The position numbers and the translations under genes are program-made. A DNA stretch of 64,000 nt from Thermoanaerobaculia bacterium. GTDB taxonomy: Bacteria > Acidobacteriota > Thermoanaerobaculia > Multivoradales > J023. Under the pieces are notes generated by a model, which saw only the letters and a list, made by a program, of their open reading frames with translations, made no database searches and was not told the origin of the DNA. The stretch is from contig JAUIJL010000015.1 of NCBI GenBank assembly GCA_030431255.1, positions 124,001 to 188,000 on the forward strand, given 5' to 3'. Positions 47,101 through 63,904 of this stretch are shown one piece after another (position 1 is the stretch's first letter; every line of letters begins with the position of its first letter).

Positions 47101-47783
47101 TGGGACGAGGCAGCCTCTTTCTGTTTTTCCTATCGCTGATCTTTGCGGTGGTGATCAAATTCGCGGTCCATGAGCAAAGGCAGCTTTCGGAGCGGGTGGT
47201 GGAAGCTCAAGTCAGCTACGGGCAGCCGCCGGAAGGCATGATTTCGTTTGACCTTCAGGAGAGCGTAAGAGTCGGTGTGCGAGGACCGTCGAGTGATATC
47301 TCCCGGCTAGCCCCTTTCACCGTCGAGGTCTTGGCTCGCATCCCGAAGGGACGGCCGGGTCCGCGGGAGATCGTGCTCGAAACCGAGGACGTGAGGTTCA
47401 ACGTTCCCGGTGATTTTGAGACGCTGTCGTTGGAGCCGAACCGTTTCACCATCCAAGTGGAAGAGCGGCTGGAAAAGACCGTGCCGATTCGGGTGGTCTT
47501 TTCCGGCGAGCCCGCCGCCGGCTCTCGGCAGTCCCAGCCCACGGCGAGGCCCGCTGAAGCGGTCGTGGCCGGACCGCGGTCCAAAGTGGAACGGCTGGTT
47601 GAGCTGACTGCCACGGTGAATCTCGACGGACATGCCCGCAGCTTTGAAGAATCGGTGCCGGTGGTGTCCACCGATCCGCTGGTCAAGGTCGTTCGACCGA
47701 CCATTGTGGTGGTCAGCGTGCCGATGGAAGAACCCGAGCTTTCGATAAATTTCGGCGAATTCGAGAAGGAAGACGAACGTTGA
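47100..47783 (+). CDS. cdaR: CdaR/YbbR-domain regulator of CdaA
   Basis: About 227 residues: one membrane helix (4-22) followed by an extracytoplasmic region with two or three YbbR-like beta repeats (VRVGVRGPSSDIS, LEPNRFTIQVEERLEKTVPI). Such proteins bind the CdaA membrane part and tune its activity. The ATG shares one base with the cdaA stop. It is shorter than the four-repeat Bacillus form. It overlaps glmM by 4 nt. Confidence 0.88.
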   Translation: MGRGSLFLFFLSLIFAVVIKFAVHEQRQLSERVVEAQVSYGQPPEGMISFDLQESVRVGVRGPSSDISRLAPFTVEVLARIPKGRPGPREIVLETEDVRFNVPGDFETLSLEPNRFTIQVEERLEKTVPIRVVFSGEPAAGSRQSQPTARPAEAVVAGPRSKVERLVELTATVNLDGHARSFEESVPVVSTDPLVKVVRPTIVVVSVPMEEPELSINFGEFEKEDER

Positions 47784-49114
47784 GCCAGCCCCGATTTTTC
47801 GGTACTGATGGGATTCGTGGGAAGTTCGGAACAGCACCCCTGGACGAGCCTACGGTACGTCGCTTGGGAGCTGCCTTGGGAGCTGACTTGGTCCGCAAGG
47901 CGGCCGCGCCGAGGGTCGTTCTCGGGGGAGATACCCGCGACTCCACGCCGATTTTGTGCTCATGGCTGGCGGCGGAGCTCCAAGCCCAGGGCATGGACGT
48001 TCAATATTTAGGCACCGTGCCGACGCCGGGGGTGACGTTTACCGTTTTGGACGGCGAGGCGGCCGCGGGAATTGCCGTGTCGGCCAGCCACAATCCCCAC
48101 CCCGACAACGGCATCAAGCTGATCGATTCCACAGGATTCAAGTGGTCGCCCAAGGCAGAGGTGATGTTGGAAGGGCGGATGGAGGAGGCCGAGGTCAGCG
48201 GTGGGCAGGTGCAGCTCGAGATCGACGAGCGGGCCTTGGCGACCTACCGGCAAGCCTTGGCCTCGACCCTCGATGGTCGTCGGCTCGAAGGGCTGAAGAT
48301 GGTCTTGGATGTTGGTTTTGGAGCCGCGACTCCCTTCGCTCGTGACTTATTCGCCGGTCTCGGTGCGCAGGTGACAGTGCTCCACGACCAACCGGATGGA
48401 TGCAACATCAACCTCAACTCCGGCTCGACCCATCCTGAGGTGCTGGCGGCGGCAGTCCGAGATGTGGGTGCCGATCTGGGAATCGCCTTCGATGGGGATG
48501 CTGACCGGGCGATCATGGTCGATGATCGAGGTGAGGTCCGCGACGGGGATGCGATTCTCTTCCTTTGGGGGCTCGATCTCAATCGGCGAGGGGCGTTGCC
48601 GGAGTCCGGCGTGGTGGCGACCACCATGAGCAACCTGGGTCTCGAGGTCGCCCTGCGTCGAGAGGGCATCGACCTGATCCGCTGTGGTGTGGGGGATCGT
48701 GAGGTGGTGGCGACTCTACGCGAGCGGGGCTTGGTGCTCGGCGGTGAGCAAAGCGGGCATATCGTGAATCTCGACCTTTCGACCACCGGTGACGGATTGT
48801 TGACCGCCCTGCAGCTGGCAGACCTTCGAGCGCGCTCCGGGAAAACCGTGTCGGAGATGCTGGACGGGTTCGAGCGTTTTCCTCAATTGCTTCGCAACCT
48901 GCCCGTGCGCCACAAACCGCCCTTGGATTCCATCCCTTCGGTGGTGGCGGCGGCGCGTCAGGTCAAGGATGAGCTCGCCGACCAAGGACGGCTCGTATTG
49001 CGGTATAGCGGAACCGAGCCGCTGGTGCGCATCATGATCGAAGGGGCTGATCGGCAGGGCATTGAGGCCTTGGCGGATCGCCTCGCTGAGGTGTTGAATC
49101 AAGAGCTGGCTTGA
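47780..49114 (+). CDS. glmM: Phosphoglucosamine mutase
   Basis: A 444-residue alpha-D-phosphohexomutase that converts glucosamine 6-phosphate to the 1-phosphate for UDP-GlcNAc, hence for peptidoglycan and LPS. The phosphoserine is Ser103 in SASHNPHPDNGIK; the metal loop is DGDADR; the sugar loop is GEQSGH; the phosphate loop is RYSGTEPLVR. TTG start overlapping the cdaR stop. GlmM is also known to bind and inhibit CdaA in Firmicutes, which explains the linkage. Confidence 0.96.
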   Translation: MSQPRFFGTDGIRGKFGTAPLDEPTVRRLGAALGADLVRKAAAPRVVLGGDTRDSTPILCSWLAAELQAQGMDVQYLGTVPTPGVTFTVLDGEAAAGIAVSASHNPHPDNGIKLIDSTGFKWSPKAEVMLEGRMEEAEVSGGQVQLEIDERALATYRQALASTLDGRRLEGLKMVLDVGFGAATPFARDLFAGLGAQVTVLHDQPDGCNINLNSGSTHPEVLAAAVRDVGADLGIAFDGDADRAIMVDDRGEVRDGDAILFLWGLDLNRRGALPESGVVATTMSNLGLEVALRREGIDLIRCGVGDREVVATLRERGLVLGGEQSGHIVNLDLSTTGDGLLTALQLADLRARSGKTVSEMLDGFERFPQLLRNLPVRHKPPLDSIPSVVAAARQVKDELADQGRLVLRYSGTEPLVRIMIEGADRQGIEALADRLAEVLNQELA

Positions 49115-49188
49115 GGATCTCGAAGCCGACTGCCCCTTGATGGAAAGATCCGTCCGACGGACCGGACCCTACTGAAGAGATGACGACC

Positions 49189-49944
49189 ATGAGCCGTGAG
49201 CTAAAGCTGTCAGTGAATATCGATCATGTGGCGACCCTCAGGCAGGCGCGCAGGTCGCCCTATCCCGATCCAGTGGAAGCCGCCGAGCTGGCGGAGCAAG
49301 CCGGCGCGGCGGGGATCACCGCTCATTTGCGCTGTGATCGACGCCATATTCAGGACGACGACGTGCGTCGGCTGCGTCGGCATGTCCGGGGCAAGCTGAA
49401 CCTGGAGATCTCCCTCGCGGACGAAATGCTGGTGCTGGCGGAGGAGATCCGACCGGATCAGGTGACCCTCGTGCCGGAGCGTCCCGAGGAAGTGACCACC
49501 GAAGGCGGGTTGGATGTGGTCCGGGGCGCCGAGGCCATCCGCGCGGGCGCTGAGCGTTTGGTGGCTCACGGTTGTGCGGTTTCGGTCTTCCTCGATCCGG
49601 ATGCACGGCAGCTCGAGGCATTGGCGGCTCTGGATCGCGATCTCGTTCCCGGCTTTGAGATCAATACGGACGCTTTCACCAAAGCGACCCTGGGCGACGA
49701 CGAGCTCTTGATCGGCAAAGAGCTGGAGAAAGTCCAGCAGGTGGCGATGCGGGGAGCGGATCTAGGGTTTCAGGTTTTCGCGGGCCACGGCATCACGACG
49801 GCGAACGTCGGGGCAATCGCCGCCATCCCCCAGGTGGAAGAGCTCAACATCGGCCATTGGTTGGTCAGCCGCGCCGCCATGGTGGGAATCTCGACTTCAG
49901 TCCGAGAGATGCTGGCGGCCATGAGAGCGGGTCGCCGAGGTTAG
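49189..49944 (+). CDS. pdxJ: Pyridoxine 5'-phosphate synthase
   Basis: About 251 residues. SVNIDHVATLRQAR at the N-terminus, HLRCDRRHIQDDD near residue 45 and GHGITTANV near 200 are family signatures. It condenses deoxyxylulose 5-phosphate with an aminoacetone phosphate to give vitamin B6. ATG 49189 has GAAGAG 9 nt upstream; the ATG three codons earlier abuts it. It follows glmM after 74 nt, an order found in several Gram-negative groups. Confidence 0.95.
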   Translation: MSRELKLSVNIDHVATLRQARRSPYPDPVEAAELAEQAGAAGITAHLRCDRRHIQDDDVRRLRRHVRGKLNLEISLADEMLVLAEEIRPDQVTLVPERPEEVTTEGGLDVVRGAEAIRAGAERLVAHGCAVSVFLDPDARQLEALAALDRDLVPGFEINTDAFTKATLGDDELLIGKELEKVQQVAMRGADLGFQVFAGHGITTANVGAIAAIPQVEELNIGHWLVSRAAMVGISTSVREMLAAMRAGRRG

Positions 49945-49953
49945 CCGAGCCGG

Positions 49954-50169
49954 CTACCGTTCGATCTCGAGATCGGTGGGGAATTCGGGCTCTGGATCTC
50001 GGAAGATGATCGAGGTCGACTGTATGGGCACCAGGACTCGGTGCTGGCGGTTGTTGAATCCCAGCCTCAGCTCGTAGTAGCCGAGTTGATTGATGCTCAC
50101 CAGGGTCGCTTTTTGATTCTTGACCGCGAGCTGGTCATTGGAGATTTGTACTTCGGCGGGTAAGTCCAT
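49954..50169 (-). CDS. Small hypothetical protein
   Basis: A 71-residue protein with alternating polar and hydrophobic strands (KATLVSINQLGYYELRLGF), suggesting a small beta-barrel, of no recognised family. AGGAG is 7 nt upstream of the ATG. The start lies 9 nt after the stop of the NtrC-type regulator gene, so it is its likely operon partner. Confidence rests on the binding site and position. Confidence 0.55.
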   Translation of the reverse strand: MDLPAEVQISNDQLAVKNQKATLVSINQLGYYELRLGFNNRQHRVLVPIQSTSIIFRDPEPEFPTDLEIER

Positions 50170-50178
50170 CAATCGCTC

Positions 50179-51570
50179 CTAATCCTGATAATGCCCTTGG
50201 TCCTTGTAGTCTTTGAGCTTGCGCTGCAAGGTGCGCAAGCCGATTCCCAGGAGCTTGGCGGCGTCGGCTCGGTGTCCCCGGGTCCTGCGAAGGGTCTCCA
50301 AAATAGCCTGCCGTTCAATTTCTTCCATGGTCCGAGGCTCGCCGAGCAAGGGCTGAACCGGGGGGATGTCCTGCCCGGCGGCGGATCCCGAGTCCACCAC
50401 CTCCGCGGGCAGAGATTCTAAAGGAATCTCACCACCGGGCTGGAAGATGATGACCGACTCCAGCACGTTCCTGAGCTGGCGGACATTGCCGGGCCAGGAG
50501 AATCGGTTGAGAGCCTCCAAAGCCTCAGCCGTCAGGTGCATCGCCGGCTTGTCGTGCTCTTCGGCCAGCTCCTTCAGATAGTGGTCCACCAGCAACGGCA
50601 AGTCACCGTGTCGTTCCCTCAAAGGCGGAATATCGAGGGTCACGACCTTGAGCCGGTAATAGAGGTCTTCCCGGAACTCGCCGTCTTCGACCATCTCTTC
50701 GAGGTTGCGGTGGGTGGCTGCCAGCAGCCTGAAATCGACCTCGATCAGCTCGTGTCCTCCCACTCGCATGATCTTGCGTTCTTCCAGCACCCGCAACAGC
50801 TTCACTTGTAGGGCAGCGGAAAGCTCGCCGATTTCGTCGAGAAAGAGAGTGCCCTTGTGGGCCAGCTCGAATTTGCCGATTTTGCGGGATACCGCGCCGG
50901 TAAAGGCTCCGCGCTCATGGCCGAAGAGCTCGCTCTCCAGGATCTCATGGGGGATCGCACCGCAGTTGATGGCGAGAAATCGTTCGTGAGCCCGGGGGCT
51001 GTTCAAATGGAGGGCGTTGGCGACTAGCTCTTTTCCGGTTCCCGACTCGCCGGTGATCAGGACGCTCGAACGCGTGGGGGCGACCATCCGCATTTTTTCG
51101 AACAGCCGTTCCATGCTGCCGGATCTGCCGATGATGCTCTCGTAACCGAAGCGTTTGTCGAGCATCTGGCGCAGGTTGGTGACTTCTTCCTTCAGTCGAC
51201 GGTTGTCGAGCAGGTTCATCACCCGCTTGCGCAGCTCGTAGAGGTCGACGGGTTTGGTCAGGTAGTCGTCGGCTCCGACTTGCATGGCCTGGACCGCGTT
51301 TTCGATCGAGCCGAATCCTGTGACCAGCACGATGGCGATGTCCAGCTCCTGCTTGCGAGCCTGTTGGATCAGCTCGATGCCGTCCATTTCAGGCATGCGC
51401 AAGTCGCAGACCACCAATTGCACCTCGGGGGTCGTGTTGAGGAATGCGAGGGCATGACGGGCGTCGTCGAAGGTGCGTACCGTCAGACCGGCCTTCTCGA
51501 TCGCGATCGCCATGGATTCGCGCGAGCCGGTCTCGTCGTCGATCACAAGAACTTGGGGCTTCTCGACCAT
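50179..51570 (-). CDS. NtrC-family sigma-54 response regulator
   Basis: About 463 residues. The receiver has DD near residues 11-12, phospho-Asp56 and the Lys in YLTKPVD; the AAA+ domain has GESGTGK (174-180), GAFTGA (221-226) and LFLDEIGE; a Fis-type helix-turn-helix ends the protein (GHRADAAKLLGIGLRTLQRKL). Phosphorylation should let it activate sigma-54 promoters. The ATG at 51570 begins the conserved receiver; the frame upstream is not conserved-looking. No cognate kinase is adjacent. No clear Shine-Dalgarno sequence is visible. Confidence 0.92.
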   Translation of the reverse strand: MVEKPQVLVIDDETGSRESMAIAIEKAGLTVRTFDDARHALAFLNTTPEVQLVVCDLRMPEMDGIELIQQARKQELDIAIVLVTGFGSIENAVQAMQVGADDYLTKPVDLYELRKRVMNLLDNRRLKEEVTNLRQMLDKRFGYESIIGRSGSMERLFEKMRMVAPTRSSVLITGESGTGKELVANALHLNSPRAHERFLAINCGAIPHEILESELFGHERGAFTGAVSRKIGKFELAHKGTLFLDEIGELSAALQVKLLRVLEERKIMRVGGHELIEVDFRLLAATHRNLEEMVEDGEFREDLYYRLKVVTLDIPPLRERHGDLPLLVDHYLKELAEEHDKPAMHLTAEALEALNRFSWPGNVRQLRNVLESVIIFQPGGEIPLESLPAEVVDSGSAAGQDIPPVQPLLGEPRTMEEIERQAILETLRRTRGHRADAAKLLGIGLRTLQRKLKDYKDQGHYQD

Positions 51571-51727
51571 GGGGGGATTTTGGCACAACCGGTGGTCGGC
51601 TGGACAGGGTGCAGCCCAAAGGGTAGGTGCTTCGGAGGCCGTCCTCAAAAGGGTCGAAAAATAGCGGGAAGCGGCAAAAATACCGAAAACCAAATGGCGC
51701 TTCGAAAAAAGAGCCCATAAATAAAAT

Positions 51728-52000: not shown

Positions 52001-52257
52001 AAAGTATCCAGATCAACTGAATCCCATTAGGAGACTGAACCCAATCCATCGAATCCGGGCCGTGTGTTCGAGCTAGGCAACGGCGTGAGCCGTTTCGACC
52101 TGCCGGCCCGAGGCCCCGTTTCGACAGGACTAATGTTAGATCCTGACCGGGCTCGGAACCATCCGCGCTGGGCCTATTGTGTTGTAGGACAAACTGCTAT
52201 TTATTTGCTTTTTTCTATTTTTGTGAGACTGACGCGTCGACTTGCCCGCGACCCCTT

Positions 52258-52286
52258 GACACTCCGAAAGGTGCCTGCTCTAATTC
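52258..52286 (+). promoter_or_regulatory. Sigma-70 promoter of the aro-his-trp leader
   Basis: TTGACA (52258-52263), exactly 17 nt, then TCTAAT (52281-52286), one mismatch from the -10 consensus. The start would be near 52293, giving a leader RNA of about 265 nt before aroDE. A T-rich tract lies at 52193-52226 upstream. Confidence 0.8.
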
Positions 52287-52358
52287 GCCGGTCACGATTG
52301 ATTTGGCAGACGATATCCAACCGGGGATATCCAAACATTGAGCGTCACATCTGAGCAC

Positions 52359-52442
52359 ATGATGATCACCCTCCACCACAACTCCCATTCTTGCTCCAGC
52401 CACGGCTGGTGGTGGCACGGCGTGCATCATTTCGGTTCTTAG
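52359..52442 (+). CDS. Leader peptide rich in His and Trp (attenuation peptide)
   Basis: A 27-codon frame from ATG 52359 (or the adjacent ATG 52362) to TAG 52442. Residues His6, His7, His10, His15, His20, His23 and His24 are histidine, 17-19 are three consecutive tryptophans and 25 is phenylalanine. Such density of two amino acids by chance is very unlikely. It lies about 66 nt after a good promoter and 115 nt before a combined aro-his-trp operon. The Shine-Dalgarno sequence is weak (CTGAG). By analogy with his and trp leaders, ribosome stalling on these codons would report low charged tRNA. Confidence 0.85.
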   Translation: MMITLHHNSHSCSSHGWWWHGVHHFGS

Positions 52443-52450
52443 GTTGGGAT

Positions 52451-52550
52451 TCGTCCCGGCCGCGTGCGGACCCGGGGCGAGGATCAGACCCATATCAGGC
52501 TAAACCTCTTTCCGGGCTCCCTCCGCCGGGGCCGCTAACGGAAAGAGGTT
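52451..52550 (+). promoter_or_regulatory. Attenuator hairpins with competing pairings
   Basis: Hairpin A: 52451-52459 with 52472-52480 (9 bp, one G-U). Hairpin B: AACCTCTTTCCG (52503-52514) with CGGAAAGAGGTT (52539-52550), a perfect 12-bp stem followed by TTCTTGCTTT. A competing pairing joins GGACCCGG (52468-52475) with CCGGGCTCC (52512-52520, one bulge) and breaks both. The leader segment 52411-52422 can pair with 52461-52472. The 3' arm of hairpin B contains AAAGAGG, the aroDE ribosome binding site, so control may act on termination, translation or both. Confidence 0.7.
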
Positions 52551-52556
52551 CTTGCT

Positions 52557-54038
52557 TTGCGTGAAACGACTTTGGTCGCAACCCTGACGTCGGCTCCTTC
52601 CCCCGATGGAAAGGAGCTTACGACGTTGCCACCAGGGGTGGGCTGGCTCGAGGTGCGAGGGGATTTGGTCGGTGAGCTGAGCCCGGAATGGCTCCGCGAT
52701 CGATTCTCAGGTGGCCTGATCTACACCCTTCGATCGAAGAGCGAGGGCGGCAGCTTCGAAGGCGGCCGCTTGGCGCGACGCAAACGCCTGTTGGCGGCCC
52801 ATGCCCACTACGATCTGGTGGATCTCGAGGGGGATCGAGATCTTTCGCCCGAAATTCTGGTGGAAATCCCACCGGAGCGACGGTTGATCTCCTGGCACGG
52901 CCCCGCCACCCACCTCACAGGTCTCAAACAGCGTTTTGAGCTGTTGTCGACGACCCAAGCCAAGTATTACAAGATGATCCCCACGGCGAAGGAGTCGGGC
53001 GACGATCTCTGCTGCTTGGCCCTTTTGCTCGATTTGAGGCGCGAGGATTTCATTTGCTTTGCCGCCGGAGACATCGGTAGCTGGACCCGGATCATCGCTC
53101 CGCGGTTAGGGTGTCCGTTGATCTACGGAGCCTTGGGAGACATTCCGGGGGCTCCGGGTCAGCTGACGGTGCAGAAGCTGCACGAGGATTTCGGCCTTCC
53201 CCAGATCGGCGACATGCAGGCGCTCTACGGCATTGTCGGCAAACCCGTCGCGCACTCCCTATCTCCCAAGTTGCACAACGGCGCGTATCGAGCCTTGGGG
53301 ATTCCCGCGGTCTACGTGGCCTTCCATGCCGAGTCCTTCGGCGACTTTTGGCTTGAGATCGTGGAATCCGATGGCCTGGAGTCCTTGGGGTTACCGCTCC
53401 GCGGATTGTCCGTGACCTCTCCATATAAAGAAGTAGCCCTCGCGGTGTCCGGAGCGTCGAGCCCGCGGGCGCAGCACATCGAAGCCGCCAACACTTTGGT
53501 GCTTCACGATCGAGTTTGGGAGGCCGAGACCACGGACCCGGACGGTGTGGTGTTGGCCCTGGAGAAGAAAGGCGCGCGCCTTCGGGGTGCCACCGCCGCG
53601 GTGGTCGGCTGTGGAGGGGCGGGCAAGGCAGCCGCCTACGGCTTGCAGCTGGCCGGCGCCAAGGTGACTCTGGTCAATCGCGGCCGGGAACGGGGTGAAA
53701 GGGCGTCGATGGCTTTGGGGCTGCCGTTTTTACCCCTGACGGACTTCGATCCTTCCCGATACGACGTCGTGATCCAAGCCACGGGTCAAGGACATCACGA
53801 GACCGACGACTTGGTCTTCGATCCGGAGCGCTTGAAACCATCCGCAGCCGTGTTGGACATGGTCTACGGTCCTCGCCCCACCCGTCTGCTCCGACAAGTC
53901 AAAGACTCCGGACGGATCGCCGTCGACGGCCGAGCCATGCTGCTGAACCAGGCTCTCGAACAATTCAGATTGATGACCGGTGAGCCGCTTTCCGAGGCAC
54001 TCGCCCGGGAGCTGCTCGGACTGGAGGATTCCATATGA
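52557..54038 (+). CDS. aroDE: Bifunctional 3-dehydroquinate dehydratase / shikimate dehydrogenase
   Basis: A 493-residue fusion. Residues about 5-220 are a type I dehydroquinase (VEVRGD-like EVRGDLV, LISWHG, Schiff-base Lys in KYYKMIPTA). Residues about 225-490 are shikimate dehydrogenase (YGIVGKPVAHSLSPKLHN, SVTSPYKE with catalytic Lys, NAD(P) loop VVGCGGAGKAAAYGL). It does steps 3 and 4 of the shikimate pathway towards chorismate. TTG start with AAAGAGG 8 nt upstream, which lies inside the attenuator hairpin. It heads the operon and overlaps hisZ by 4 nt. The N of the usual NVT motif is Ser here. Confidence 0.93.
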   Translation: MRETTLVATLTSAPSPDGKELTTLPPGVGWLEVRGDLVGELSPEWLRDRFSGGLIYTLRSKSEGGSFEGGRLARRKRLLAAHAHYDLVDLEGDRDLSPEILVEIPPERRLISWHGPATHLTGLKQRFELLSTTQAKYYKMIPTAKESGDDLCCLALLLDLRREDFICFAAGDIGSWTRIIAPRLGCPLIYGALGDIPGAPGQLTVQKLHEDFGLPQIGDMQALYGIVGKPVAHSLSPKLHNGAYRALGIPAVYVAFHAESFGDFWLEIVESDGLESLGLPLRGLSVTSPYKEVALAVSGASSPRAQHIEAANTLVLHDRVWEAETTDPDGVVLALEKKGARLRGATAAVVGCGGAGKAAAYGLQLAGAKVTLVNRGRERGERASMALGLPFLPLTDFDPSRYDVVIQATGQGHHETDDLVFDPERLKPSAAVLDMVYGPRPTRLLRQVKDSGRIAVDGRAMLLNQALEQFRLMTGEPLSEALARELLGLEDSI

Positions 54039-55012
54039 AAGTCTCGGCGTCTTTGCCGACTGGTGTAGCCGCCCTGCTTTTTGAGGGAGCGCGCCGACAC
54101 CGCCGTCTCGAAAAGACGATGGTGGACATGCTGGAGGACCGAGGATTTCAGGAGGCGATCCTGCCGGTAGTCGACTACCTTCGGCCCTACGAGGACCTGC
54201 TCAGCTCACAAAGCCGCTCGGAGCTCTATCGATTCGTGGATCGCGACGGCGAGCTTTTGGCCATGCGCGCGGACTTCACCCCCATGTTGGCTCGGTTGCT
54301 GGCCCCCCATATTTCGAGTCTCAACCTGCCGATCCACCTCTTTTATCGCGGCGACGTGCTGCGGTATCAGGAAGAAAGGGCCGGCCGACAGCGTGAGTTC
54401 TACCAGCTCGGCGCCGAGGTGCTGGGAATGGAAGGCGGACAGGCTGAGGAGGAGGCGTTGATCCAATTTCTCGACCTGCTGCGGGTCGGGGAGCGAGCCC
54501 ATCTGGTGGTGGTCTTGGGGTTTGCCGGCGCTCTTGACCGACTCTTGCTCGAACGCTCTGGCGACGGCATGAAAGCGTCGGATTTCGTGGATGCCATGGT
54601 CCGTCGGGAGCGACGTCACGCCCGCAAGGCGGGGAGGGCATTGCTCGAAGTGGTTGAGGACGGAGTGCCGGCGGATCCGTCGGTGCTCGGGGAGCCGGCC
54701 GCTGCCCGGCTCGAGGCCTTGCGAGCGCTGCGCAAGCGACTGGCGCCCCGATTCCCGGAGGTCGACTTGCGCATCGACTTGGCGGAATTCGCCGACCAGG
54801 TGGTCGAGCCCTCGCTATTGGGCGAGATCGGTACCCGCGCCTATTACGACGGATTGGTCTTTCGAGCCTTCGCCGGGGCGGGGGCGGAGCCGGTGGGAGC
54901 CGGCGGCCGATATGACCGTCTCTTCTCGAGCCTCGGGGCGGAGGTGACCGCCGCGGGTTTCTCGTTCAGCATCGACCGACTTCTCAGCCCTTCCTCGGAG
55001 ATCGACCGATGA
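54035..55012 (+). CDS. hisZ: ATP phosphoribosyltransferase regulatory subunit
   Basis: A 325-residue class II aminoacyl-tRNA synthetase paralogue. Motif 2-like FYRGDVLRYQ and the motif REFYQLGAEVLG resemble histidyl-tRNA synthetase, but the anticodon-binding domain is missing and the length fits HisZ. HisZ joins short HisG in an octamer and provides feedback inhibition by histidine. The next gene is the short form of hisG, as expected. ATG overlaps the aroDE stop. Confidence 0.92.
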   Translation: MKVSASLPTGVAALLFEGARRHRRLEKTMVDMLEDRGFQEAILPVVDYLRPYEDLLSSQSRSELYRFVDRDGELLAMRADFTPMLARLLAPHISSLNLPIHLFYRGDVLRYQEERAGRQREFYQLGAEVLGMEGGQAEEEALIQFLDLLRVGERAHLVVVLGFAGALDRLLLERSGDGMKASDFVDAMVRRERRHARKAGRALLEVVEDGVPADPSVLGEPAAARLEALRALRKRLAPRFPEVDLRIDLAEFADQVVEPSLLGEIGTRAYYDGLVFRAFAGAGAEPVGAGGRYDRLFSSLGAEVTAAGFSFSIDRLLSPSSEIDR

Positions 55013-55632
55013 TTCGTTTGGCATTGCCCAAAGGACGTAATCTCAGCACCGCGCTCAAGGCGTTTGAAGCGGCGGATTGGCCCTTGGATTCCCTAGAAAA
55101 GGGTGACCGACGCCTGCGGATTCCATTCCCCGAAATCGACGCCGAAGCGCTGCTGCTCAAAGATTGGGACGTCCCCCTCTACGTGGAATACGGCATTGCA
55201 GACGTGGGTGTAGTCGGCAGCGATGTGCTTGAGGAGGTGGGTGGTGATGTATTGGTACCCGCCAGATTTACCGAAGGTCGGAGCCGCATGTCCTTAATCG
55301 GCAAGGGTGGCCTCCCGAAGCCGGGGCAGCAAGTGCGTCTCGCTTCGAAGTTTCCCAACATCGCTCGGGCCGTGGTTGCGACCAAGCCCTGGAGCGCGGA
55401 AATTTTGAAGCTTTGGGGCTCGGTGGAGCTCGGGCCGTTGCTCGACCTCTCGGAAGTGGCGCTCGATATCGTGCAAACCGGTCGAACTTTGAAGGACAAC
55501 AACCTACTGGAGCTGGAAGCGGTCCGCGAGGTGGCTCCGATTTTGATCGTCAATCGAGCCGCATACCAAAACCACCGGCAGGCTTTGAACGGTCTGCTTC
55601 GCCGGATGGAAGCCGCAGGGGTGGTGGAGTGA
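55009..55632 (+). CDS. hisG: ATP phosphoribosyltransferase, short form
   Basis: A 207-residue HisG(S) that lacks the C-terminal regulatory domain, so it needs HisZ. It opens IRLALPKGRNLSTAL and has the PRPP loop DIVQTGRTLKDNNL near residue 155. It joins ATP and PRPP in the first step of histidine synthesis, which also draws on PRPP needed for tryptophan. Overlaps hisZ by 4 nt. Confidence 0.95.
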   Translation: MIRLALPKGRNLSTALKAFEAADWPLDSLEKGDRRLRIPFPEIDAEALLLKDWDVPLYVEYGIADVGVVGSDVLEEVGGDVLVPARFTEGRSRMSLIGKGGLPKPGQQVRLASKFPNIARAVVATKPWSAEILKLWGSVELGPLLDLSEVALDIVQTGRTLKDNNLLELEAVREVAPILIVNRAAYQNHRQALNGLLRRMEAAGVVE

Positions 55633-55663: not shown

Positions 55664-57013
55664 ATGGCGACTCTGAAAATTACCAAAGCGGAAAGCCGCG
55701 CCGGAAATAAATTGTTGGCTCGATTGGAAGGTCGAGGCGCGAGCATCCTAGACCCCACCATCGTCCGCCAGACCACTGCGATCGTCGACAGCGTGCGCAA
55801 AACCGGAGATCGAGGGCTGCTCAGGGCGGCGCGCAAATTCGACGGGGTCAAGGTGAAATCCGTCGAGGACTTGCGTCTCAAGGCCGAGCGCACGGACCGT
55901 CGGCAGCTGCCCGCTGGTTTTGAGCACGCGTTGGAACGATCGATCGTGGCGGTGGAGAGGTATCACGAAGGGCAACGGCACGGCGGCTTCCGCTTCGCCG
56001 AGGGCGGCGTGGAGCTGACCGAAAACCGACGCCCCCTTCGCCGGGTCGGGATCTATATCCCCGGCGGGCGAGCGAGCTACCCCTCCTCCGTGGTGATGAC
56101 GGTGGGGCCGGCCAAGCTGGCGGGGGTCGACGAAATCGTGGTCGCCACGCCCATGGCCGGCTTCCGTCGCAGCCCGGCCCTTCGTCACGTTTTGGAGCGT
56201 TTGGGGGTCCGGGAAGTCTGGGCCATGGGCGGTGCCCACGCGGTGGCGGCCATGGCCTACGGCACGGAAACCATCGGCCGGGTCGACAAAATTGTCGGCC
56301 CCGGCAACGCCTGGGTCACCGCCGCCAAACACCTGGTCTCCGGCCACGTGGCGATCGACGGCTTGGCCGGTCCGAGCGAGGTCTTGATCATCGCCAGTGG
56401 TGACGGAGTCGATGCGGAATGGGTGGCCGCCGACCTGCTGGCTCAAGCAGAGCACGATCCTATGGCCACCGCCCTCTTGATCACCGATCGTCCGAAGCTC
56501 GCCCGTGAGGTCGAAAAAGCGCTGGCGCGGCAGCTCAAGAGCTTGAGCACCGCCAAGGTGGCGAGAGCGTCCCTCAAGGATTACGGCGCAGCCATCGTGG
56601 TGCGGGACATGGACACGGCGTTGCAATGGGCCGAGCGCATCGCCCCGGAGCATTTGCAATTGGTCGGTCGGGAGGCGGAGGGCTTGGCGGAGAAGATCCG
56701 CAACGCCGGGGCTGTTTTCGTCGGTGCTTCGACCCCTGAAGTCTTCGGCGACTATCTCGCCGGTCCGAGCCACGTGCTGCCCACGGCCGGCACCGCCCGA
56801 TTCACCTCCGCGCTGGGCATCGAGGATTTCATCCGCCGCAGCCACATCGTCCGTTTCAGCTCGGAAGCGGCCGGCCGTTGCGCGGCCGCGGCGGGGGTGC
56901 TCGCCGACGTTGAAGGGTTGCCGGCCCACGCGGCCTCCGCCCGTCTGCGTTCCCGCGGCACCCACACCCCCCGTGACGGCGAAGGGCGGGGCTCCAAGGG
57001 TGGTGGAGCCTGA
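55664..57013 (+). CDS. hisD: Histidinol dehydrogenase
   Basis: A 449-residue zinc enzyme that oxidises histidinol to histidine in two NAD-dependent steps. Motifs: [16 protein letters not shown] near residue 128, [13 protein letters not shown] near 210, [16 protein letters not shown] with zinc ligands, and the catalytic Glu-His in [13 protein letters not shown] lies upstream of the ATG. It is 31 nt after hisG, the largest gap within the his part. Confidence 0.96.
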
Positions 57014-57014
57014 T

Positions 57015-58142
57015 ATGACCAGTCTCAGCCCAGAGCCGGCGGCGGGTCGCCCGGAGACGTGGGTCCGCGACGAGGTGAAACGCCTCAAGATCTACCATCT
57101 GGATTTGACCCCCTGTCGCCACAAATTGGATCAGAACGAGGTGCCCTACGAGCTGCCCGTGGCCTTTAAGCGGCGGATCGCAGAGCGCTGGGTGGCCACC
57201 GAGTGGGCCAAATACCCGGACTTCCATTCCGATCGGGTGCGGGAGCTGTTGGCCGACCGTCATGCATGGCCGATGGAGGGCATCTTGGTGGGCAACGGCT
57301 CCAACGAGCTCTTGGGGGTGACGCTGGAAGCCATCAGCAGGCCCGGTGGTGAGGCCCTGGCCACCATTCCCAGCTTCGGCCTCTATCGGATGTTCATCGA
57401 GCGGGCCGCGCTAAAGCCTCGATTCATTTCCGCGGATGCGGACCTGAAGCTGCCGATGTCCGCGTTGCTTGAAGAAGTCGCGGAGGATCCGAGCCGGCCG
57501 GTGATCCTATGCTCGCCGAACAATCCGACGGGCGACGCGGTCACCACCGAGCAAGTCGAGGAGCTTTTGTCGCTGCTGCGAGCACCCCTGCTGCTCGACA
57601 ACGCCTACGGCGAGTTTTGCCGTTACGACTATCGACCCTTGCTCGAGAAGCATCGCCATCTCGTGCTCTTCCGTACCTTCTCTAAAGCCTGGTCCCTCGG
57701 TGGTTTGCGATTGGGTTATTTGATGGCCGACCCCGACTTGGTGCACCAGCTGATGAAGGTCAAGCTGCCTTACAACGTCGGTATCGGCCACGGTTTGGCG
57801 GCCCAGGCGGTTCTGGAGCATCCGGCGGCCGCGGAGCGTCGAGTGCGGGCGATCCTCGGACGTCGACCCCAATGGCAGGCCATGCTCTCAGAGCTGGGTT
57901 TCGAGGTCTTCGATTCGGAAGCCAACTTCTTCCTGGCTCGGGTGCCCGAGGGGCGTGACGTCGATCGAATCCGGGCGGGGCTCGAAGCGCGGAGCATTCG
58001 GGTGCGCGACGTGTCGAAATATCCCGGTTTGTCCGGCTGCATGCGGGTCTCGGTGGGCTCTGGACGGGCCCTGCGGGACGTGCGCGTCGCCCTCGAAGAG
58101 ATGTTGAACCCAGCACCGAGCGCGGAGAACGACGATGACTGA
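57015..58142 (+). CDS. hisC: Histidinol-phosphate aminotransferase
   Basis: About 375 residues, fold type I PLP enzyme. KLDQNEVPYELP near residue 38, CSPNNPTGD near 165, LLDNAYGEF and the PLP-lysine motif TFSKAWSLGGLRLGY are present. It makes histidinol phosphate; related forms also act on aromatic amino acids. The ATG at 57015 is fixed by GGAG 6 nt upstream and lies 1 nt after the hisD stop; the longer open frame upstream only shadows hisD. Confidence 0.95.
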   Translation: MTSLSPEPAAGRPETWVRDEVKRLKIYHLDLTPCRHKLDQNEVPYELPVAFKRRIAERWVATEWAKYPDFHSDRVRELLADRHAWPMEGILVGNGSNELLGVTLEAISRPGGEALATIPSFGLYRMFIERAALKPRFISADADLKLPMSALLEEVAEDPSRPVILCSPNNPTGDAVTTEQVEELLSLLRAPLLLDNAYGEFCRYDYRPLLEKHRHLVLFRTFSKAWSLGGLRLGYLMADPDLVHQLMKVKLPYNVGIGHGLAAQAVLEHPAAAERRVRAILGRRPQWQAMLSELGFEVFDSEANFFLARVPEGRDVDRIRAGLEARSIRVRDVSKYPGLSGCMRVSVGSGRALRDVRVALEEMLNPAPSAENDDD

Positions 58143-58755
58143 GCATCGACGGGACCGAAAAGGATCGATCGAGCGTCGAACCCGAGAGACTCAAATTCAA
58201 GCGACCCTTAATTTAGACGGTGGCGAGCGTCGGATCGACGTGCCCGGGGGTTTCTTCGCTCATATGCTCGATGCCCTGACCACCCACGGTGGATTGGGCA
58301 TCGACCTGAAGGCGGAAGGAGACACCCACGTCGATCTGCATCACACGGTCGAGGACGTCGGCATTTGCTTGGGCGAAGCTCTGGTAGAAGCCCTCGGGGA
58401 TCGCGCGGGCATCGTGCGTTTCGCTGATGCCTACGCACCCCTCGACGAAGCCTTGGCGAGGGCGGTGGTGGACATCTCAGGAAGGGGTTTCTTCGTCTAC
58501 AACGTGCCGCCTGAGCTGGAGCACACCTGGGTGACCCAGGACTTTCCCCTCAGCCTGATCGTGGATTTCTTCCAAGCGTTCGCGGATCGCGGCCGTTTCA
58601 CCCTGCATCTGGATATCTTGCGCGCCCGAAACGGACACCATGCCGCGGAGGCGGCCTTTAAAGCCGTGGCCGTGGCCCTGCGTCGAGCGATCGCCGTGCG
58701 CGCGGGAACGTCGAGCGCCGACGTGCCGAGCACCAAGGGGAGCCTCACTGTATGA
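58135..58755 (+). CDS. hisB: Imidazoleglycerol-phosphate dehydratase
   Basis: A 206-residue monofunctional HisB with the duplicated metal motifs LHHTVEDVGI near residue 65 and GHHAAEAAFKA near 165. No phosphatase domain is fused, so histidinol phosphatase must be elsewhere. Overlaps hisC by 8 nt and hisH by 4 nt. Confidence 0.96.
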   Translation: MTEHRRDRKGSIERRTRETQIQATLNLDGGERRIDVPGGFFAHMLDALTTHGGLGIDLKAEGDTHVDLHHTVEDVGICLGEALVEALGDRAGIVRFADAYAPLDEALARAVVDISGRGFFVYNVPPELEHTWVTQDFPLSLIVDFFQAFADRGRFTLHLDILRARNGHHAAEAAFKAVAVALRRAIAVRAGTSSADVPSTKGSLTV

Positions 58756-59408
58756 GCGATCCGCGATCTGCTGCTCCCGGTCACCGCGTGGTGGTGATCG
58801 ACGCGGGTGTCGGCAACCTGGGGAATTTAATGCGTGCTTTGGCCCATTTGGGGGCCGAGGCCGAGCTGACCGTGGATCCGGAGGTCGTTGCCGGAGCCCG
58901 ATGTTTGGTGTTGCCCGGGGTCGGTGCGTTCAGGCCTCCCCGGGAAAACTTGCGCGGCGAGATGGAAACCGCCGTCCGCCGAGCCTTGGACGCCGGCGCT
59001 TATCTCCTGGGCATCTGTGTCGGCTACCAATTGCTCTTCGACGCCAGCGACGAATTCGGCTCCACCGATGGTTTGGGCCTGCTGCCCGGGCAGGTGCAAC
59101 GCCTGCCGGACGGGGTGTCCCTGCCGCAAATCGGCTGGAATCAATTGGTCGACGTCCGGGACGAGCATCCGCTCTTTCGCGGTCTCGAGGCCGGTAGTCA
59201 TTTCTATTTCGTCCACACCTACGCGCCGTTGGAGGTGCCGGAGTCGGCGGTGCTGGCGCGGGCGAAACACGGCACGACCTTTGTCGCCGTCGCCGGTCGG
59301 GACCGGGTTTTCGGTACTCAATTCCACCCGGAAAAAAGCGGCGCCAACGGTTTGCGGCTGATCGAGAACTTTTTGGAGATGGCCCATGAAGCTGATTCCA
59401 GCCATTGA
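58752..59408 (+). CDS. hisH: Imidazole glycerol phosphate synthase, glutaminase subunit
   Basis: A 218-residue class I glutamine amidotransferase. The nucleophile Cys is in LGICVGYQLLFD near residue 84, and His-Glu in GTQFHPEKSG near 190. It supplies ammonia to HisF. Overlaps hisB by 4 nt and hisA by 23 nt. Confidence 0.95.
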   Translation: MSDPRSAAPGHRVVVIDAGVGNLGNLMRALAHLGAEAELTVDPEVVAGARCLVLPGVGAFRPPRENLRGEMETAVRRALDAGAYLLGICVGYQLLFDASDEFGSTDGLGLLPGQVQRLPDGVSLPQIGWNQLVDVRDEHPLFRGLEAGSHFYFVHTYAPLEVPESAVLARAKHGTTFVAVAGRDRVFGTQFHPEKSGANGLRLIENFLEMAHEADSSH

Positions 59409-60141
59409 CTTGCGCCAAGGCAAAGTGATCCGCCTTTCCCAAGGGGACGACGGCCGTCGGACCGAATACGCGCATGATCCCGCGGACTTGATCCGCACCT
59501 TTGCCGAGGCTGGGGTCAGCCGGGTCCACATCGTCGACTTGGACGGCGCCTTCGGCGAACAGCCACAACGACCCCTAATCGAATCGTTGGTGAGGCTGGC
59601 CGCCGGCATGTCCGAGCCGCTGTTGGTCGAGCTCGGTGGCGGTTTGCGCGACGAGGAGTCCGTGGCCTGGGCGGTCGACGCCGGTTGCGATCGGTTGGTG
59701 CTGGGCTCCATGGTGGTCAAGGATTTCGATCGATTCCACCGTCTGGTGAAGCGTTTCCCGGACCGATTGGTGCCGGCGGTGGAAGTGGCGGCGGGTCGAG
59801 TCCAGGTCTCCGGCTGGACCGAGTCCGCGGCGGTCGGCATGCTGGAGCTGTGCCAGAAGCTCTCGGGCTTGCCGTGTCCGGCCGCGCTGGTCACGGATGT
59901 GGATCGAGACGGCACCATGACCGGTCCGAATTTAGAGCTGGCCCAACGGGTCGCCCGCCTGAGCGGCTTGCCCACCATCCTCTCTGGTGGGGTCACCAGC
60001 CTCGACGACCTGCGGGCGGCCGCGAAAGCGACCGAGCTGGATGGGGTGATCGTGGGCAAGGCGTTCTACGAAGGGCGGTTCACCCTAGAGGAGGCGCTCG
60101 AGATTTTGGAAGGACCAGGAACCCAAGGAGGCTCGGAATGA
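59386..60141 (+). CDS. hisA: ProFAR isomerase
   Basis: A 251-residue TIM barrel. It begins [20 protein letters not shown] with the catalytic Asp8; the second catalytic Asp is in [14 protein letters not shown] near residue 170. It opens the ribose ring of ProFAR. Because no trpF lies in view, a bifunctional HisA/TrpF (PriA-like) role is worth considering, but nothing in the motifs shows it. Confidence 0.95.
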
Positions 60142-60980
60142 GCGGGGAAACCGAAGCGAGCCTGCCGAAGATCACCGTGCGAGTCGAGCGGGGAGGTGAG
60201 AGCGGTCTGACCTTCCGGGTGATTCCATGCTTGGACGTCAAGGACGGACGGGTGGTGAAAGGCATTCAATTCAAGAACCTGCGCGATCTCGGGGATCCCG
60301 CGGAGTCCGCCCGGCGTTATGCCGAGCAGGGGGCGGACGAAATCGTCTTCCTCGACATTACTGCGGCACCGGAAGGACGCGACACGGATCTGGATTGGGT
60401 CCGACGCACTGCCGAGCAAGTCTTCATTCCCCTTTCCGTCGGTGGTGGGGTGCGCAAATTGGACGACGCCGCACGCTTGTTGCGGGCCGGGGCCGACAAA
60501 GTCGCTACCAATACTGCGGCGATCGAGCGGCCGGAGCTTCTCACCGAGCTGGCCGAGCACTTCGGCAGCCAATGCGTGGTGCTTTCCGTCGACGCGAAGC
60601 GCCTCACGGGCTCAGACCAGCCGCCGGCTTGGGATGTGGTCACCCACGGCGGTCGCAAGGCCCGCAACATGGACGTCTTGGAGTGGATCGAGCGCGGGGT
60701 GGAGCTCGGGGCCGGAGAGATCTTGTTGACCTCGATCGACGCCGACGGCACCCGCGACGGTTACGACTTGGAGCTGATGCGTCGGGTCACCCGGCAGGTC
60801 AGCGTGCCGGTGATCGCTTCCGGCGGTGCCGGCAACCTCGATCACCTGGCGGATGCCATGGAAGCCGGGGCTTCGGCGGTCTTGGCCGCCTCCATTTTTC
60901 ACGAGGGCACATATACCGTGGCGGAAGTGAAGCACCGGCTGCGACAACGGGGTTTCGCCATGCGCGAGGAGATAGGTTGA
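60138..60980 (+). CDS. hisF: Imidazole glycerol phosphate synthase, cyclase subunit
   Basis: About 280 residues. The barrel has [16 protein letters not shown] with catalytic Asp and [14 protein letters not shown] with the second. About 26 residues precede the usual HisF N-terminus; AAGGAGG 8 nt before ATG 60138 supports the long form. Works with HisH to form the imidazole ring and AICAR. Overlaps hisA by 4 nt. Confidence 0.95.
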
Positions 60981-61624
60981 TGGTACGGCACGATATCGAT
61001 CCGTCGAAGCTCAAGCTCGACTCCCGGGGCCTGCTTCCCGTGGTGGCCCAAGACGTCGCCACCGGCACGGTGTTGATGCTCGCCTGGGCGGACCGGGAGG
61101 CGGTGGAGAAAACCCTGGAGACCGGAGATGCCTGGTTTTGGAGCCGGTCGCGGAAGGAGCTGTGGCGAAAGGGCGGAACCTCCGGCAATGTGCTCAAGGT
61201 GGAGGAGGTACTGCAGGATTGCGATGCCGACAGCCTGCTTTACCGGGTCCATCCCCAAGGGCCGGCTTGTCATCGCGGGACCCGAAGCTGCTTCGAGCCC
61301 GCCACCGGTGAGCTCGAGCTGGGCTGGTTGTCCCAGGTGCTCGAGGCCCGCAAGAGCTCGGGTGATACGAGCTCCAGCTATACCGCTGGATTGCTGGCGA
61401 AAGGGCGCCCTCGAATCGCCCAAAAAGTGGCCGAGGAAGCCGCCGAGACGGTGATCGCTGCGCTCACCCTGCACGACGACGAGGGGCGAGATCCCGAGGA
61501 CGAGCTGGTGGGTGAAGCGTCGGACCTGCTCTACCACCTGCTCGTTCTATTGCTCGACTGCGGCATCCCCCCTCGTCGAGTGGCGGAGAAGTTGGCGGAG
61601 CGGCATCGAGAGACGAAGACCTGA
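60980..61624 (+). CDS. hisIE: Bifunctional phosphoribosyl-AMP cyclohydrolase / phosphoribosyl-ATP diphosphatase
   Basis: About 214 residues. The HisI half has [19 protein letters not shown] and the zinc/metal motif [23 protein letters not shown]; the HisE half has [18 protein letters not shown] and [10 protein letters not shown]. It does steps 2 and 3 of histidine synthesis. GAGGAG precedes the ATG, which shares one base with the hisF stop. This completes the his pathway apart from a histidinol phosphatase. Confidence 0.95.
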
Positions 61625-61664
61625 CCATCTACTGACCCCAGCTTTCCACATCTGCGAGCAACCC

Positions 61665-63185
61665 ATGAGCGACTCATCTCCTGCCGCGACCATCCACGCG
61701 GCCTCGACCACCGCACCCGGTCCCGACTCGACCTCCACCACCGCACGGCGAGCCGTGGTCCATGTGCGCGAATTCTTGGCGGACACCTTGACCCCCCTGG
61801 CGGTATATCAGCGCCTCGAGCCCTTGTCGCCGGTCCGCTTCCTATTGGAAAGTGTCACCGGCGGCGAGCAGGTGTCTCGCTTCAGCTTCTTGGGCGTGAA
61901 ACCCCGGGAAATTTATCGGCTTTACGAGGACCGCCTGGAGGTCCAAAAGGGCAAGACCAGCCGGGCCCTCGCCGGTCCACCCCTAGATGTCTTGCGCGGG
62001 GTGTTGCGGTCGATCCGCAGCGAAAAAGGGCCGATTCCGTTCACCGGTGGCTACGTGGGCTTTTTCGGTTACGATCTGGTGCGGATGATCGAAAAGCTCC
62101 CGGCCAAACCCCACGACCCCTTTGGGTTGCCGGTGGGTGTCTTCGCCCGTTTCGACACCGTGGTGGTATTCGATCATGCGCGGCAGCGGGTCTTGGTGGT
62201 GGCCAACGAGATCGAAGGGGAAGTGTCGATGACCCAGGCTGAGCGGGATTTGGCTCGGGTCTCCAAGCTGTTGACCTCCTCGAGCTCTGCCGGCAGCAGC
62301 CGTGCCGTCCCCATGCCGACCGAGTCGGACACGCCCAGCGCGCCTACCAGCCGGGTGTCCATGGACGGCGCCACCTATAGGCAAGCGGTGGAGAAGGCGA
62401 AGGAATACATCGGTGCCGGCGATATCTTTCAAGTCGTGCTGGCCCGTCGTTGGACGGTGCCCCACGCACCGGGACCCTTGGCCCTCTATCGCGCCCTGCG
62501 GATGGTGAATCCCAGCCCCTATATGGTTCTCTTGGAGCTGCCGGACGCGGCTTTGGTCGGTGCTTCGCCGGAGATGCTGGTGCGAAAGGAAGGCATCCAA
62601 GTTCAGAATCGGCCGATCGCGGGTACCCGGCCCCGGGGAGTCGACTCCGAGGGGGATCGACGTCTGGCCGAGGATCTCAAAGCCGACGCCAAGGAGCGGG
62701 CGGAGCATGTGATGTTGGTGGACCTCGGGCGCAACGACATCGGCAAGGTGGGGCGGCCGGGCACGGTGAAGGTCGCCACCTTCATGGAAGTGGAAAAATA
62801 TAGCCACGTCATGCATTTGGTGTCGTCGGTCCAAGCGGATCTCGACACCGGAAAGGATGGCCTCGACGCCCTCTTGGCCTGCTTTCCGGCGGGCACCCTC
62901 TCCGGAGCGCCGAAGATCCGGGCGATGGAAATCATCGATGAGCTCGAGCCGGAATCCCGGGGACCCTACGGCGGCGCGGTGGGTTATTTCTCCTATTCCG
63001 GAGATGTGGACACCTGCATCACCATTCGCACCTTGGTCGAGAAGGACGGCGAGACGTCGGTCTCCGCCGGTGCCGGCATCGTCGCGGACTCGGATCCGGC
63101 GGCCGAAGAACGGGAAACGGAAAATAAGGCGGCGGCATTGTTGGCCGCCGTGGGATTGGCCCAGAAGCTGGAGGAACGGTCGTGA
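61665..63185 (+). CDS. trpE: Anthranilate synthase component I
   Basis: About 506 residues, full-length chorismate-utilising enzyme. The tryptophan feedback motif LLES occurs in PVRFLLESVTGG near residue 61. Catalytic motifs: GAGDIFQVVLARR, IAGTRPRG, LVDLGRNDIG, AGTLSGAPKIRAMEIID. It makes anthranilate with TrpG. The start has only a weak GAG; a 40-nt gap separates it from hisIE, with no hairpin terminator, so it is likely still cotranscribed. The N-terminal 30 residues are low-complexity. Confidence 0.95.
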   Translation: MSDSSPAATIHAASTTAPGPDSTSTTARRAVVHVREFLADTLTPLAVYQRLEPLSPVRFLLESVTGGEQVSRFSFLGVKPREIYRLYEDRLEVQKGKTSRALAGPPLDVLRGVLRSIRSEKGPIPFTGGYVGFFGYDLVRMIEKLPAKPHDPFGLPVGVFARFDTVVVFDHARQRVLVVANEIEGEVSMTQAERDLARVSKLLTSSSSAGSSRAVPMPTESDTPSAPTSRVSMDGATYRQAVEKAKEYIGAGDIFQVVLARRWTVPHAPGPLALYRALRMVNPSPYMVLLELPDAALVGASPEMLVRKEGIQVQNRPIAGTRPRGVDSEGDRRLAEDLKADAKERAEHVMLVDLGRNDIGKVGRPGTVKVATFMEVEKYSHVMHLVSSVQADLDTGKDGLDALLACFPAGTLSGAPKIRAMEIIDELEPESRGPYGGAVGYFSYSGDVDTCITIRTLVEKDGETSVSAGAGIVADSDPAAEERETENKAAALLAAVGLAQKLEERS

Positions 63186-63904
63186 TTTTGCTGATCGACA
63201 ACTACGATTCATTCACCTACAACCTGGTGCAATTGCTGCGTGAAGCCGGGGCCGAGGTGGAGGTGTTGCGCAATGACGCGGACACCGTCGAAGGCGTGCT
63301 CGCGCGCAAGCCGAGCGGCATCGTGCTGTCGCCGGGTCCCGGACGACCGGAGTCTGCGGGCATCTGCCTCTCGCTGTTGAAGGCCGAGCCGGACGTGCCC
63401 ATCCTCGGAGTGTGCTTGGGGCACCAATGCTTGGGCCAGGCCTGGGGGGCCACCGTCGATCGCGCTGAAAAGCTGATGCATGGCAAGACCTCCATGGTCG
63501 ACTACGAGCCGGATCCCCTCTTCGAAGGCCTTCCGAACCCTTTCCAAGCGACCCGCTACCACAGCCTATGTGTCCTCGAGTCCACCGTGCCCGACGACCT
63601 TCGCCCGATCGCATGGTCGGAGGAGCCACAGCCCGAGGGGCCACAGCCTGAGGAGCCACAGCCTGAGGGGCCGAGGGGCGGTGCCGACCCCGGGGAAACC
63701 CGGTCGATTCGAACCGTGATGGCCATGCGACACCGGCGATTACCCCATTGGGGAGTCCAATTCCACCCGGAGTCCGTGTTGACCTTCGCGGGCGTTCAGA
63801 TGTTGCGCAACTTCCTCCGCATCTCCGGGGTGAGCGTCTCCAACGAGGCGCCGTCGCCGCTGGTGGAGCAAGAGCAGCTGGCGGCCGCGGGAGTGATGTC
63901 ATGA
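63182..63904 (+). CDS. trpG: Anthranilate synthase component II (glutaminase)
   Basis: A 240-residue glutamine amidotransferase: LIDNYDSFTYNLVQ at the N-terminus, nucleophile Cys in LGVCLGHQ near residue 79, His-Glu in GVQFHPES near 193. Between these lies an insertion of about 28 residues, coded by 15-bp repeats and reading (E/G)PQPE three times, absent from ordinary TrpG. GTG start overlapping the trpE stop by 4 nt (GTGA). Confidence 0.94.
   Translation: MILLIDNYDSFTYNLVQLLREAGAEVEVLRNDADTVEGVLARKPSGIVLSPGPGRPESAGICLSLLKAEPDVPILGVCLGHQCLGQAWGATVDRAEKLMHGKTSMVDYEPDPLFEGLPNPFQATRYHSLCVLESTVPDDLRPIAWSEEPQPEGPQPEEPQPEGPRGGADPGETRSIRTVMAMRHRRLPHWGVQFHPESVLTFAGVQMLRNFLRISGVSVSNEAPSPLVEQEQLAAAGVMS
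63623..63667. repeat. Three tandem 15-bp repeats inside trpG
   Basis: Copies at 63623-63637, 63638-63652 and 63653-63667 follow (G)(A/G)GCCACAGCC(C/T)GAG and encode (E/G)PQPE. A partial fourth copy follows. They form a Pro/Glu-rich surface loop. Confidence 0.85.

Follow-up and report, generated by a model that had tools for sequence, protein, structure and literature searches.

The analysed window (the whole stretch of DNA under study, 64,000 nucleotides of a 10.2-Mb genome) contains on its forward strand a short leader peptide gene and, directly after it, an unbroken operon of 17 genes, aroDE-hisZGDCBHAF-hisIE-trpEGDCFBA, whose ORFs follow one another without a large gap. The first-pass annotation had listed the operon as aroDE-his-trpEGD; these genes are present, but its extent was understated, as the operon runs past the window through trpDCFBA. 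Family assignment by profile was checked for six of the operon genes. The genes within the window are as follows:

52557..54038, + strand: aroDE, fusion of dehydroquinate dehydratase and shikimate dehydrogenase (matched by the NCBIfam aroD and aroE models)
54035..55012, + strand: hisZ (TIGR00443, score below cut-off)
55009..55632, + strand: hisG (TIGR00070, above cut-off)
55664..57013, + strand: hisD (TIGR00069, above cut-off)
57015..58142, + strand: hisC, start approximate (ORF, operon position and relatives)
58135..58755, + strand: hisB (family check)
58752..59408, + strand: hisH (ORF and relatives)
59386..60141, + strand: hisA (ORF and relatives)
60138..60980, + strand: hisF (ORF and relatives)
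60980..61624, + strand: hisIE, start approximate (ORF and relatives)
61662..63185, + strand: trpE, start approximate (TIGR00564, above cut-off)
63182..63904, + strand: trpG (ORF; trpD, C, F, B and A come after the end of the window, in L036, up to position 18648)

Judged from translations only, the upstream neighbours (47780-51693) appear to be phosphoglucosamine mutase-like and pdxJ-like genes, and an NtrC-type sigma-54 response regulator is read upstream of the leader on the opposite strand (50179-51693). The leader region itself comprises the following features:

52256..52284, + strand: promoter TTGACA-N17-TCTAAT, about 75 nt upstream of the leader frame
52359..52442, + strand: leader peptide gene of 27 codons, MMITLHHNSHSCSSHGWWWHGVHHFGS and stop (direct reading and orthologous leaders)
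52407..52415, + strand: three putative Trp sensor codons, W17-W19
52416..52418, + strand: putative His sensor codon H20, a member of the conserved C-terminal His set
52425..52430, + strand: putative tandem His sensor codons H23 and H24 (F25 replaces the third His of relatives)

Direct reading of the sequence confirmed the frame that had been described here, from ATG at 52359 to TAG at 52440-52442, with seven His, three Trp (WWW) and one Phe codons. The promoter reported with it is also near-consensus (11 of 12 bases), and a similar one (at least 9/12) stands at the same place before the leader in 26 of 32 relatives; only its position, given as 52258-52286, was two nucleotides off. A rule-based scan for promoters and terminators listed none here, owing to fixed rules that require A as the second base of the -10 box and restrict loop length. 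Compared with relatives, the conserved part of the peptide is limited to the C-terminal WWWHGVHH, and the four N-terminal His codons and the Phe codon are not conserved. In 20,000 simulated stretches (267 nt, local composition), short frames with two Trp and four His codons appeared 140 times (~0.7%), so that a G+C-rich leader reading as His and Trp by chance might be imagined. However, none of the 20,000 stretches yielded three Trp and seven His codons, and the combination is conserved through the order and recurs in other orders; chance can practically be dismissed, having already been refuted by these comparative data.

Examination of related genomes revealed that the leader with Trp and His codons, the promoter and a five-segment RNA switch recur across the taxonomic order, and that Trp- and His-containing leaders of different sequence are present in other orders of the class. 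The search for a conserved His/Trp-rich frame in relatives, which the first-pass annotation had proposed as a check, thus favoured its claim, both codon types being kept in orthologous leaders. The order's leaders upstream of aroDE include those ending in HSWWHGVHHGV, GGWWHGVHHHGR, AGWWHGVHHHGDF, AAWWRGVHHHGNR, GWWGFVHHHVE, AWAWRTHHHHAVS, CWRRSGHHHAVS and SWWAHGHGKG (stop codon following in each case). The pattern TGGTGGNNNGGNGTNCAYCAY was found in 7 of 149 genomes of the class, once in each and always before aroDE-his or hisZ. The only named relative found, a MAG, carries the label Acidobacteria bacterium CTSoil_010. A covariance model run on 396 genomes of the phylum recovered the order's leaders at E values of ~1e-13 or below, and among its weaker matches are leaders that precede hisZ or aroDE in families f10, f18 and f65 (such as TWHHHTR and stop in G249). 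Three weak matches from outside the class (L224-L226) were discarded, as they are not near his or trp genes. Neither the Rfam models His_leader (RF00514) and Trp_leader (RF00513) nor, upstream of the operon, the T-box model gave a match, either in the window at gathering score or in 52150-52700 at E values up to 5. Whether these leaders descend from a common ancestor or originated repeatedly is not settled.

Approximately 65 related leaders were then sorted by whether they precede a joint his-trp, a his-only or a trp-only operon. Before joint operons, all 42 leaders contain Trp codons, and all 42 have at least two His codons near their end (genus g7 alone supplies more than a dozen of these rows, with near-identical leaders). 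Where his genes are separate from trp, His is present in 14/14 leaders and Trp in 3/14, these three, each retaining one Trp codon, being exceptions to the match. For aroDE-trp operons without his genes, Trp is found in 10/10 leaders and at least two His codons in 3/10, His having been lost or eroded. The association between Trp codons and trp genes (Fisher's test, p = 3e-10) is descriptive, as the leader rows are related, and the His thresholds, including the His-run criterion, were chosen post hoc on data already seen.

Individual rearrangements were also inspected. In three genomes (G002, G003 and G006), aroDE lies 2-6 kb from hisZ and a leader ending in GWWHGLHHHGI or SWWYGVHHHGI stands immediately before hisZ, which assigns the leader to his-trp rather than to aroDE. 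Where his is apart from trp in G010, G025, G026 and G004 (the last with hisF and hisIE-trpE apart, on different contigs), the leader ahead of the his operon contains His codons but none for Trp; His-only leaders at such splits contain VHHHKMT, GVHHHHGMS, VVVHHHPVI and GGMHHRHGP. No leader turned up in a search ahead of the separated hisF-hisIE-trp operon in G010 and G025, nor in one ahead of trpE in G026. G010 also has a second hisZ-like frame, containing a single internal TAG (G010:C49:3757-4707, L096), which lies apart from the his operon and has no His leader. In those genomes of family f10 that were read, his and trp are split: the hisZ leaders end, for example, in RTHHHHHHVM and SHHHHHHVM, and the aroDE-trp leaders, located in two of the genomes, end in NWWWSRRS and NWWWYC. 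In genomes with aroDE-trp in which hisG was not found, Trp has been kept and the His run has decayed in five leaders (PVWWCVRSRS, CWRGRAQHRLS, CWWRRAHIHAG, RWRSHVHLHGA and RWRSHVHLLGA, each before the stop). Within genus g16, G022 and G028 retain both the his genes and HHH, and G039 and G045 lack both. No hisG was detected at E 1e-10 in any family f3 genome searched (e.g., G008, G023 and G043), and the whole family is possibly His-auxotrophic; its aroDE-trp operons are mostly without a leader.

Further leaders differ in the arrangement of their codons. Joint aroDE-his-trp operons of family f18 have them interleaved (SWHWHWHHG, LWHWHHA and RHWHVHHS before the stop), the leader of family f14 ends in RHHHHWHWTVRR, and the aroDE-trp leaders of families f16 and f17 end in CWYWYWSDTR, NWRWREATR and SWWRLEKRR. 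In the first of these three (L282, G131), Trp and Tyr codons alternate, which suggests a putative Trp and Tyr input for that aroDE-trp operon. The His-only leaders of G113 and G114, ending in RHHHH(V/G)PPRR (L238, L239, L287 and L289), occur despite trpEG downstream of the his genes; no trpD-A was seen after trpG within the sequence that was read, and these leaders are only in part exceptions to the rule.

One criterion for an attenuator, a short leader with codons for the products near its end, is met by the frame, its conservation and its correlation with the operon, with translation being inferred. As far as sequence comparison can tell, the pattern suggests that leaders acquire or shed sensor codons when genes relocate. 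A leader that senses only one amino acid and carries the remaining codons as inherited filler appears very improbable to us: Trp and His codons are close together in every leader and could hitch-hike, but several separate lineages have dropped Trp from the leaders of operons without trp, and His where the his genes are absent. Scarcely tenable is a functional His/Trp-rich micropeptide that is not a sensor. His-rich peptides are generally known to be able to bind metals, yet conservation is limited to the last codons, whose order and spacing vary (WWHGVHHH, WHWHH, HHHHWHW, HGH), codon content tracks the operon, and a conserved RNA with alternative structures comes immediately after.

This RNA consists of five segments (E0 to E4) between the leader frame and aroDE:

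52442..52449, + strand: E0 (GGTTGGGA), overlapping the stop codon by its final base; partner, E1; conserved and coevolving
52453..52461, + strand: E1 (GTCCCGGCC), pairs with E0 or E2 (coevolution, covariation)
52471..52482, + strand: E2 (CCCGGGGCGAGG), pairs with E1 or E3 (coevolution, covariation, folding)
52503..52516, + strand: E3 (AACCTCTTTCCGGG), forms the antiterminator with E2 or the terminator with E4
52539..52550, + strand: E4 (CGGAAAGAGGTT), 3' arm of the terminator/sequester hairpin (covariation)
52542..52548, + strand: Shine-Dalgarno AAAGAGG of aroDE, inside E4, 8 nt before TTG at 52557
52549..52559, + strand: interrupted U tract TTCTTGCTTTG, ending in the aroDE start codon (direct reading)

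Across the order, the segments take the forms GCCGGG-like (E0), TCCCGG (E1), CCGGGACGAG (E2), CCTCCTTCCGG (E3) and CCGGAAGGAGG (E4). Native duplexes of E0:E1, E1:E2, E2:E3 and E3:E4 were stronger than duplexes with partners swapped between genomes, and none of 5,000 permutations was as strong. Five of the six control combinations of segments had no effect (p above 0.06), and E0:E2 had a small one (p = 0.009). Moreover, both alternative structures exceeded shuffled and slid controls in paired cells and in covariation score. The mutually exclusive hairpins noted earlier at this locus are thus real and conserved. In a folding test that took the RNA up to E3, with E0 either free or masked by a ribosome at the stop codon, the antiterminator E2:E3 was stronger with E0 free in 21 of 27 leaders; the reverse was seen in 0/27, and six leaders showed no discrimination. 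This ribosome-masked folding had likewise been proposed beforehand, and the expected shift was obtained in most leaders, but the difference in the window is small (11.9 expected E2:E3 pairs with E0 free vs 10.0 with E0 masked). According to the folding model, the switch is weaker in the window genome than in its relatives, and the antiterminator would largely persist with E0 masked, which is a real weakness. The attenuator criterion of mutually exclusive antiterminator and terminator hairpins is met by coevolution, covariation and folding.

The frame, its conservation, the match between codons and operon, the coevolution of four pairings and the folding preference together support a ribosome-mediated attenuator with two amino-acid inputs. 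We consider this reading very probable, although stalling, the ON/OFF outcome and OR logic are inferred and no RNA, protein or growth data are available. Transcription would start near 52291, and the leader would be translated by a ribosome. With ample Trp-tRNA and His-tRNA, the ribosome would reach the stop codon and cover E0, so that E1:E2 forms and E3 is free for E4, whose hairpin would end transcription and/or hide the aroDE Shine-Dalgarno (OFF). When charged tRNA for Trp or for His runs short, the ribosome should halt on the Trp or His codons, which lie 12-35 nt ahead of E0 in the window; with its leading edge assumed at ~14 nt, stalls from W17 to H24 would leave E0 free or nearly so. E0:E1 and E2:E3 could then form, E4 would stay open, and the 17-gene operon would be expressed (ON). 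Because a Trp stall and a His stall would lead to the same ON state, the predicted logic is OR; together with stalling, it is inferred from geometry and folding and has not been measured, and it fits the varying codon order across lineages (Trp first, His first or interleaved). The central proposal of the first-pass annotation, a single OR-type leader that responds to both His and Trp and serves a joint operon, is supported in that orthologous leaders keep both codon types and codon content tracks operon content. Its suggestion that tRNA-Phe might be sensed as well is not supported: F25 is not conserved, relatives have their third His at this position, and the codon is too near E0 to work well, as a stall there would cover part of E0. 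Phe was rejected as a third input and, on the alignment, is not a likely one.

In known his and trp leaders, as the first-pass annotation noted, ribosome stalling controls termination. The E3:E4 hairpin is real (12 pairs in the minimum-energy fold of the window), but termination is uncertain in the window genome, because the U tract is interrupted and the 3' arm of the terminator is the aroDE Shine-Dalgarno site; with respect to the criterion of a U tract, the window offers a strong helix followed by TTCTTGCTTTG. Whether the last hairpin acts here by termination or by masking the Shine-Dalgarno remains open. It is possible, though on balance unlikely, that the same two-input leader acts mainly on translation, E3:E4 sequestering the Shine-Dalgarno AAAGAGG of aroDE (or that of hisZ), stalling freeing the site, and termination being minor or absent in the family. 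The position of this site in E4 agrees with such control, as do the 20 of 32 leaders in which E4 has a Shine-Dalgarno-like site with an in-frame start just behind, and the hairpins of G002, G003 and G006, from the same family, which have an ATG right behind and no U tract. On the other hand, a clean TTTT+ tract directly follows the helix in most relatives, seven of the 11 bases in the window's own tract are T, and one masked site would not silence 16 downstream genes without polarity or coupling. In G002, G003 and G006 (L065, L058 and L057), the hairpin is terminator-like with a Shine-Dalgarno-like arm, and in G003 the ATG opens a small frame that ends in an ATGA overlap with hisZ. The two-input attenuator may extend to a class-wide modular leader, in which sensor codons would be gained or dropped at his/trp fusion or split, one hairpin arm would serve as both terminator arm and Shine-Dalgarno, the U tract would double as spacer and start codon, and the His-or-Trp decision would act on transcription and translation together; we offer this only tentatively, with our doubts slightly outweighing our confidence.

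The leader peptides of the textbooks respond to a single amino acid, or to several that belong to one pathway. In the hisL attenuator of Salmonella and E. coli, the His codons of a short leader precede the his operon, and a chain of mutually exclusive segments ends in a terminator. The leader in the window resembles hisL in its His codons and its alternating segment chain ending in a terminator, but hisL has no Trp codons and is unlinked to trp or aro, and the present leader has no Rfam His_leader match. Several amino acids are read by one leader in thrL (Thr and Ile) and ilvL (Ile, Val and Leu) of enterobacteria; these share one pathway, whereas His and Trp belong to separate pathways joined here in one operon. 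The trp attenuators of Corynebacterium and Streptomyces have double or triple UGG codons in their leaders (PMC1262725). Like trpL of E. coli, they share tandem Trp codons and an antiterminator/terminator with the window, but no His codons have been described in them and they control trp genes only; the window adds E0:E1 behind the stop codon. In bacilli, His leader peptides precede hisS or hisZ (PMC2965389); these leaders are likewise His-rich before hisZ outside Proteobacteria but are described as His-only. We found no description of a leader reading both His and Trp, or of codon content tracking operon fusion and fission, in the open-access literature, and a prior mention elsewhere is not excluded. 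Leader-peptide attenuation is known, and the inferred reading of His and Trp of two pathways in one leader is a new variant. At the time of the last survey (PMC2965389), hardly any of the attenuators predicted in Acidobacteria had been linked to a function; in this phylum, one leader appears to read the products of two separate pathways sharing one operon, and natural operon fusions and fissions provide a set of variants with which multi-input attenuation logic becomes directly testable.
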